Positions 34,920 to 35,102 of a DNA stretch of 46,483 bases are shown here, one piece after another (positions within the stretch are counted from its first letter, which is position 1; every line of letters starts with the position of its first letter). This stretch comes from an uncultured Clostridia bacterium. Lineage in GTDB: Bacteria > Bacillota > Clostridia > Oscillospirales > Ruminococcaceae. Made by a program: the position numbers and the translations under genes. Below the pieces are notes generated by a model that was not told the DNA's origin, ran no database searches, and saw only the letters and a program-made list of their open reading frames with translations. Location of the stretch: contig CANQLR010000022.1 of NCBI GenBank assembly GCA_947624745.1, forward strand, positions 1 to 46,483, written 5' to 3'.

Positions 34920-34933
34920 ATATACTCCGTTTC

Positions 34934-35001
34934 AAAAAAGCCTCCACGGCTATTCACGACGAATAGACAGTGGAGGAAGATCATTTCAAGCGATCTCCGC
35001 C
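34934..35001 (-). promoter_or_regulatory. Transcription attenuator of the aromatic operon
   Basis: Two mutually exclusive RNA hairpins (leftward). The terminator pairs CCTCCAC (34970-34976) with GTGGAGG (34941-34947), with inner CTATTC/GAATAG, followed by TTTTTT (34934-34939). The antiterminator pairs GGCGGAGATC (34992-35001) with GATCTTCCTCC (34972-34982), with one mismatch and one bulge; it ties up five of the seven bases of the terminator's 5' arm. The leader peptide stop is 9 bases upstream of the antiterminator, so a ribosome at the stop would cover the strand and let the terminator form. Confidence 0.85.
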
Positions 35002-35009
35002 ATTGCCTC

Positions 35010-35045
35010 TTAGGTAAAATAATAATATCCGAAATATGTATTCAT
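35010..35045 (-). CDS. Aromatic amino acid leader peptide (MNTYFGYYYFT)
   Basis: An 11-residue frame with an AGGAGG site seven bases before its ATG. The codons are ATG AAT ACA TAT TTC GGA TAT TAT TAT TTT ACC TAA: four tyrosine and two phenylalanine codons of eleven, with three Tyr in a row. It starts about 22 bases after the expected transcription start and precedes the terminator/antiterminator pair. This is the arrangement of ribosome-mediated attenuation, where scarcity of charged tRNA-Tyr (and tRNA-Phe) stalls the ribosome and permits read-through into the aromatic genes. There is no tryptophan codon, matching an operon that leads to tyrosine rather than tryptophan. Confidence 0.85.
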   Translation of the reverse strand: MNTYFGYYYFT

Positions 35046-35073
35046 ACATATTCCTCCTATTAAAGATATGTAT

Positions 35074-35102
35074 ATGATACGCTTTTGGGCGGCGAAAGTC
35101 AA
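35074..35102 (-). promoter_or_regulatory. Aromatic operon promoter
   Basis: TTGACT (35097-35102), 17 bases, TATCAT (35074-35079), leftward. The predicted start near 35067 leaves about 22 bases before the leader peptide. Confidence 0.75.

Follow-up and report, generated by a model that had tools for sequence, protein, structure and literature searches.

The segment upstream of the shikimate-to-tyrosine genes of an uncultured Clostridia bacterium (35102–34920, minus strand, in the 46,483-nucleotide stretch of DNA analysed here, hereafter the window) raises the question of how these genes are controlled. Control of the aromatic amino-acid genes in Firmicutes is generally attributed to T-boxes and TRAP. 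In classical attenuators, such as the his, trp, and pheA leaders of E. coli, a promoter is followed by a short frame rich in product codons, an antiterminator overlapping a terminator, and the operon. The leader in the window has the same layout of promoter, frame, overlapping hairpins, and operon. It differs from the E. coli leaders in its host, a member of the Clostridia, in its mixed Tyr and Phe frame, in the genes that follow (shikimate genes and tyrA), and in having no Rfam match. The comparisons described below make it highly likely that this leader is a ribosome-mediated transcription attenuator sensing the charging of tRNA-Tyr, and probably that of tRNA-Phe.

Anatomy of the leader and its operon

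All features described here lie on the minus strand. The leader starts with a promoter of the sigma-70 type (35102–35074), in which TTGACT (35102–35097) and TATCAT (35079–35074) are separated by a 17-nt spacer; it matches the consensus at 10 of 12 positions, and between 27550 and 35250 a single other promoter-like site reaches 10 or more matches of 12. The Shine-Dalgarno sequence AGGAGG (35058–35053) is located 7 nt before the ATG (35045) of the leader frame and 15 nt past the −10 hexamer, not 22 bases past the promoter as the sequence-only reading had stated. The frame (35045–35010) consists of 11 codons, four of them for Tyr and two for Phe, and encodes MNTYFGYYYFT followed by a stop. The two strands of the 46-kb window together contain 223 short frames preceded by a Shine-Dalgarno sequence, and this frame is the only one with at least five F/Y in eight residues. 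The antiterminator 5′ arm (35001–34992) begins 8 nt past the leader stop, and the 3′ arm (34982–34972) overlaps the 5′ arm of the terminator. The lower stem of the terminator, delimited by folding and by comparison of the genus leaders, is formed by CCTCCAC (34976–34970) and GTGGAGG (34947–34941), which is followed by C and then by a T6 tract (34939–34934). Apart from the spacing of AGGAGG, the earlier description of the promoter, the Shine-Dalgarno sequence, the frame, the arm coordinates, and the T6 tract agrees with the sequence, and the observation of a promoter, AGGAGG, a Tyr/Phe frame, and overlapping hairpins is real.

The leader therefore presents the parts by which an attenuator is recognized: a short frame, preceded by a Shine-Dalgarno sequence and enriched in end-product codons, between the promoter and the first gene; an intrinsic terminator that follows this frame and precedes the operon; and an antiterminator with bases common to the terminator. 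Folding energies were computed for both hairpins, as had been suggested. Folding in isolation gave −18.6 kcal/mol (z −5.35) for the terminator and −15.0 kcal/mol (z −3.27) for the antiterminator region. The two hairpins had been described as mutually exclusive. Their arms do overlap, but in the minimum-energy fold of the window RNA eight inner pairs of the first hairpin coexist with the terminator, and competition with the terminator is thus limited to the outer antiterminator. The same fold contains a predicted 10-bp hairpin (35054–35031) over the end of AGGAGG and the leader start codon.

Pfam searches agreed with the proposed seven-gene operon. The first gene encodes a chorismate mutase–3-dehydroquinate synthase fusion (CM-AroB, 34919–33627; CM_2, DHQ_synthase, and DHQS_C), and it is followed by genes for chorismate synthase (AroC, 33630–32524; Chorismate_synt), a shikimate dehydrogenase–shikimate kinase fusion (AroE-AroK, 32518–31256; Shikimate_dh_N and SKI), 3-dehydroquinate dehydratase type II (31275–30847; DHquinase_II), EPSP synthase (AroA, 30850–29645; EPSP_synthase), prephenate dehydrogenase (TyrA, 29673–28780; PDH_N and PDH_C), and, as the final gene of the unit, DAHP synthase (28753–27725; DAHP_synth_1). 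A separate promoter-like site (27658–27630) precedes the next gene, which encodes argininosuccinate synthase; this supports the seven-gene unit. The gene upstream of the leader encodes CTP synthase, also by Pfam.

From this anatomy we infer that the leader is translated, that the ribosome can stall in it and switch termination, and which tRNA is dominant. Under a shortage of charged tRNA, the ribosome would stall at the Tyr/Phe codons, and the arm just past the stop would stay free and pair with the terminator 5′ arm; the antiterminator formed in this way would let RNA polymerase continue into the seven genes of the operon. With charged tRNA in ample supply, the ribosome would reach the stop and cover the antiterminator 5′ arm, the terminator would form, and transcription would end near 34934. 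Expression would in this manner be set by charged tRNA-Tyr and tRNA-Phe.

Conservation in the genus

When 60 relatives were searched by protein sequence, the full CM-AroB fusion was found in 13 genomes, including that of the window (66–70% identity for the other 12). In 12 of the 13 orthologous operons, a Tyr/Phe-rich short frame and both hairpins are present upstream of CM-AroB; examples of the leader peptides are MKSNNYYYFYYKS.., MSGRFYFYYYR, MLRFSGYYYYFNS, MKRYGYYYFYNS, and MAITNASFFYYYND. The exception is G018 (L003), in which the promoter and the gene are there and no such leader was found. The peptides have little in common beyond Tyr and Phe, which interchange with each other, and the other residues vary. 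The 69 aromatic codons of the genus frames are a mixture of 37 TAT, 10 TAC, 15 TTT, and 7 TTC, indicating that the third bases drift while the Tyr/Phe residues stay. When the 31 genus genomes analysed were searched with a covariance model, no further strong copy was detected; only the 12 aro leaders scored strongly (E ≤ 5.1e-11), a match by construction because the model was built from them. Eight weaker rows had E values from 4.6e-4 to 0.08. Four of these repeated the leader sites on the opposite strand, and the remaining four were in G013, G026, G012, and G023 (loci L090–L093), among which L093 alone showed a weak Tyr/Phe candidate, near its edge.

Both hairpins are possible in all 12 genus leaders and are alternatives of similar predicted strength, with energies of −10.1 to −14.9 kcal/mol for the antiterminator and −13.1 to −18.5 kcal/mol for the terminator. 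The two structures overlap in CTCCAC, which belongs to the 3′ arm of the antiterminator and to the 5′ arm of the terminator alike. Standard pairs occupy 93.5% of the cells of the antiterminator (27–64% when the arms are slid) and 92.4% of those of the terminator (33–46% when slid). Covariation was weak for the terminator, with 47 of 500 shuffles as high; for the antiterminator only 4 of 500 were as high, but few changes underlie the score, and the shuffles ignore relatedness in both cases. The weakness of the antiterminator covariation results from the 3′ arm being common to the terminator and nearly invariant. The sharing of bases between antiterminator and terminator is thus supported by complementarity and energy and weakly by covariation.

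The antiterminator 5′ arm begins at most 8 nt past the leader stop in nine of the 12 genus leaders, including that of the window. The stop is lost in the other three (L004, L010, and L012), which are alike and have CGA where four others have TGA. In L012, the Tyr frame runs to a stop in the antiterminator loop, and a ribosome halting there would still block the antiterminator. The Tyr frames of L004 and L010 run to a stop in the terminator loop; as these two leaders read, the simple textbook attenuation logic needs modification for them. The comparison of orthologues proposed in the sequence-only reading accordingly upheld the frame and the stems in 12 of 13 operons, but it also disclosed the weak antiterminator covariation, one leaderless member, and three stop-less ones.

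Besides the leader itself, the promoter has conserved features. The sequence GCGTA leads into the −10 hexamer in all 13 genus promoters, with GGCGTA in 12 of them. The spacers of several, even that of the leaderless G018, resemble TTACGGCTTTAACGGCG, an imperfect palindrome (35096–35074 in the window; L002–L013). A spacer of this GCGTA type is a possible operator for a transcription factor. The spacer motif ending in RGCGTA has two sites in the genome of the window, the second of which precedes a gene starting MRVYNFSAGPAMLPEEV that we take to be phosphoserine aminotransferase-like; with these two sites, a common operator of a clear regulon was rejected.

The inner hairpin of the terminator (34950–34966 in the window) reads approximately TTATTCGTG.TGAATA in the genus and CTATTCGTCGTGAATAG in the window. 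In the genus alignment (A2), the mean column identity of this hairpin and its loop (columns 55–68) is 0.90, versus 0.41 for the antiterminator loop. The near-invariance may reflect a pause site or be a mark of common descent. A polymerase-pause consensus is matched in the terminator hairpin by four of six bases at one position in seven of the 12 leaders. The sequence CTCCACCACTTATTCGTTATG, found in another family (f24; L141 and L146), looks like the inner terminator hairpin of the genus.

The near-invariance of this inner hairpin and loop, which goes beyond the needs of base pairing in the genus, would also be expected if the hairpins were a riboswitch or a protein-binding attenuator, for example a TRAP-like one, with the Tyr/Phe frame being incidental, and the lack of an Rfam match leaves room for an unknown ligand. 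However, what the leaders of many families have in common is a Tyr/Phe-rich frame immediately ahead of the arms, no compact conserved aptamer was seen in the leaders compared, and the third codon positions drift. We regard a riboswitch or a binding protein as quite improbable in comparison with attenuation by the ribosome.

Leaders beyond the genus

The order was sampled with 394 genomes, 107 of which contain a close AroB; four of these are genus members. From the 103 non-genus genomes, 100 loci (5 kb upstream of AroB) were included in the main scan, 16 of them shorter than 5201 bases owing to contig ends; G177 was left out, and no leader was flagged in two further genomes scanned separately. 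The fixed rules were a frame of 7–34 codons, a Shine-Dalgarno word, at least four F/Y in eight residues, and, no farther than about 125 nt away, a terminator below −9 kcal/mol. A Tyr/Phe leader with a terminator was found in 37 of the 100 aro loci, versus three of 100 on the opposite strand. The candidates, one in each of the 37 loci, are located 1.1–1.5 kb or 2.2–2.6 kb before AroB. Among the 190 residue pairs, F+Y ranked first at every threshold: requiring four, five, and six of eight residues gave 37, 31, and 19 loci, respectively, against 3, 1, and 0 on the opposite strand.

Relaxed rules combined with inspection increased the number to 41 of the 100 loci, distributed over 10 families besides that of the window. 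The relaxed scan flagged seven of the 63 missed loci, and four (L125, L150, L159, and L162) were accepted and three (L135, L140, and L156) dismissed by eye. The other 59 loci have no leader by the criteria used, but 11 of them are cut by contig ends, and absence from such shortened loci says little. In addition, the scan rule misses some true leaders, as it left unflagged L061 (a record of the genus member G010), whose leader has only three Tyr. Of the 919 residues in the 41 order leaders, 157 are Tyr, 128 are Phe, and none is Trp. The Tyr:Phe ratio is 47:22 in the genus leaders versus 157:128 in the order leaders (p = 0.057, with sequences that are not independent), and a Tyr bias of the genus was rejected. 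By Pfam, the first gene past the terminator in eight loci encodes a chorismate mutase–prephenate dehydratase (three loci), an aminotransferase (three), a DAHP synthase (one), or a DUF554 protein (one, L150). The presence of the leader in 12 of 13 genus orthologues and in 41 of 100 distant aro loci lends support to the ribosome-mediated attenuation proposed in the sequence-only reading.

These results also bear on a plainer explanation, in which an ordinary leader and terminator serve polarity or basal control and the peptide sets a constant level with no amino-acid sensing. The operon of G018 manages without a leader, as it might under such control. A constant level would nevertheless give no account of Tyr and Phe being kept while other residues change, of F+Y standing out among all residue pairs in the 100 aro loci, or of the absence of Trp from the 41 leaders. 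We consider basal control very improbable and retain attenuation sensing tRNA charging as the preferred explanation.

Leaders were also found outside the order and in named loci. In the class-level set (flanks of 1.5 kb), four of 22 loci outside the order have a leader by eye (L231, L241, L242, and L245), and the flagged L229 and L233 were dismissed. Sixteen of 17 named loci were scanned (L074 was left out); leaders were identified in L062 (Ruminococcus sp. RGIG2380) and L063 (Clostridiales RUG041), and the flagged rows of L068, L069, L070, and L073 were dismissed. The leaders of L062, L063, and L150 (about 2.0–2.15 kb before AroB in the last) have in common a longer peptide pattern similar to FTxARFYAGFYC, which suggests a constraint on the peptide or the RNA beyond Tyr/Phe content. 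By eye, the leader regions of L129 and L143 seem to contain two tandem terminator-like hairpins. A second Tyr/Phe leader candidate was flagged in L082. In L084 (G048:C14), from a genome outside the close-AroB set, a short frame containing Tyr and Phe, MARLSAHNFMAYYGFTRFTGYGKFVVEQCGI, occurs with a terminator about 1.6 kb before AroB.

Hairpin architecture in other families

In many leaders of other families, the antiterminator 5′ arm seems to lie within the frame, directly past the Tyr/Phe run, where the Asp-Cys codons (GGACTGC) pair with GCAGTCC, which overlaps the terminator 5′ arm. Because the arm is inside the frame, the peptide sequence would be shaped by the RNA switch in several families. 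The best duplex between the stretch past the Tyr/Phe run and the terminator 5′ arm was compared with base shuffles in 40 of the 41 leaders (L125 was left out, the script finding no terminator hairpin in it). The duplex reached p < 0.05 in 21 leaders, where two were expected, with a mean z of −1.7; the other 19 missed this level. An alignment (A3) was made of 23 of the 41 leaders, picked for a GGACTGC-like arm inside the frame and including L127 and L128, which have the arm in another register. On this alignment the terminator covaries, with 15 cells changed on both sides, and none of 500 shuffles scored as high. For the antiterminator, pairs fill 80% of the cells, versus 10–49% when slid, and its covariation was not above that of the shuffles (362 of 500 as high). 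The shuffles ignore relatedness in both tests.

Relation to published leaders

The sequence-only reading had described leader-peptide attenuation as best known in proteobacteria, which needs correcting in view of the published Firmicutes cases (PMC2965389, PMC5794164, PMC8632094). According to the accessible portions of these sources, a His leader-peptide attenuator exists in bacilli (PMC2965389) and a Leu attenuator peptide precedes the ilv genes of S. aureus (PMC5794164). In both, as proposed here, a leader peptide takes the place of a T-box in Firmicutes; the amino acids, the genes, and the lineages differ from those of the window leader.

For shikimate genes, the uORFC-13-1 motif occurs before aroF in Acholeplasma and environmental sequences (24 representatives); in the text available, it has a U run coding for at least one Phe and a terminator, and attenuation was proposed (PMC8632094). 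It resembles the window leader in combining an upstream short frame containing one or more Phe codons, a terminator, and a shikimate gene. Compared by text alone, it differs in preceding aroF only and in having no Tyr/Phe block in its description (PMC8632094). An analysis of five genomes, one of them a Clostridium, presented two uORF candidates that are notable for F and Y and precede shikimate genes (Fig. 6b of PMC6429828, as far as that source was available). They are short F/Y frames like that of the window, and overlap with the class in Clostridia is possible. Predicted attenuators, taken from a prediction database and of a type unstated in the part of the source consulted, precede the Phe/Tyr supraoperons of Enterococcus faecalis and Streptococcus pneumoniae (PMC1173090). 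They are similar in that attenuation is proposed for large aromatic operons in Firmicutes, and unlike the window leader in that no leader peptide is described in that part (PMC1173090). The available text of PMC11109978 contains no such element.

Firmicutes thus have published peptide attenuators for His and for Leu, and uORFs containing Phe or Phe/Tyr have been proposed before shikimate genes. Full-text literature searches, mostly covering sources other than subscription journals, gave no recognisable account of a Tyr/Phe leader class in these Clostridia among the matches listed. The mechanism is of a known kind, and this element, which is far wider than one genome, appears to be undescribed.

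T-boxes and the leader in one genome

A T-box, or a degenerate one, reading tRNA-Tyr directly is an explanation that the genome of the window itself brings to mind, as it contains T-boxes, including those before tyrS and trpE. However, the search for T-boxes found none in the window at the gathering score and none at E ≤ 0.5 in seven loci with leaders. About 155 nt separate the −10 hexamer from the gene, less than the T-box model (RF00230), which has 219 positions. The T-box core motif occurs in three of the 100 aro loci, only one of which (L125) has a leader, with the motif about 2 kb upstream of it. On the basis of the RF00230 and core-motif searches, the T-box identity of the leader was rejected, and we assign it a negligible probability beside the ribosome-mediated attenuator.

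Phe_leader is one of the amino-acid leader families of Rfam. These families gave no match in the window at the gathering score, and the search of the seven leader loci at E ≤ 0.5 returned one tRNA only. Since the leaders examined match no Rfam family, leaders of this kind would go unannotated.

The genome of the window has 10 T-box matches, four of them above the cut-off. By Pfam, applied to six of the 10 loci, those above the cut-off precede, among others, hisS, tyrS, and the gene for 2-isopropylmalate synthase, and those below it precede trpE (E 5.7e-20), a class I (I/L/M/V) synthetase gene, and alaS. The gene past a further T-box below the cut-off (L038) is presumably pheS, judging from its start. 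Among L032, L035, and L038, the tyrS T-box alone was confirmed at the gathering score. The tyr operon and tyrS probably read tRNA-Tyr by different RNA devices, a leader peptide and a T-box, respectively, so that the charging of one tRNA would probably be read by two RNA devices in one cell.

Taken together, these observations incline us, somewhat more than not, to a joint reading: the Tyr/Phe leader-peptide attenuators would form a class, undescribed and spread across the order, that governs aromatic operons in 11 or more families of uncultured Clostridia and, in the genome of the window, coexists with the tyrS and trpE T-boxes as one of two unrelated devices for tRNA-Tyr; the peptide would be shaped by the switch in several families, and the nearly invariant inner terminator hairpin may contain a polymerase pause site. 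If the peptide attenuator truly recurs before aromatic genes across this order, it would be a normal rival to the T-box there, and the control of tyrS by a T-box and of the tyr operon by a peptide would provide a natural comparison within one genome.

Three minor observations concern the same genome. The prephenate dehydratase gene belongs to another operon, in which no Tyr/Phe leader was found; the gene ahead of it, directly past another frame, is presumably a DAHP synthase gene, judging from its start. A weak T-box match lies near a contig end (L040, G000:C15:55407–55522), and no frame of at least 80 codons follows it. The core of the tyrS T-box reads GGUGGUACC, and UAC occurs in its presumed specifier stretch.
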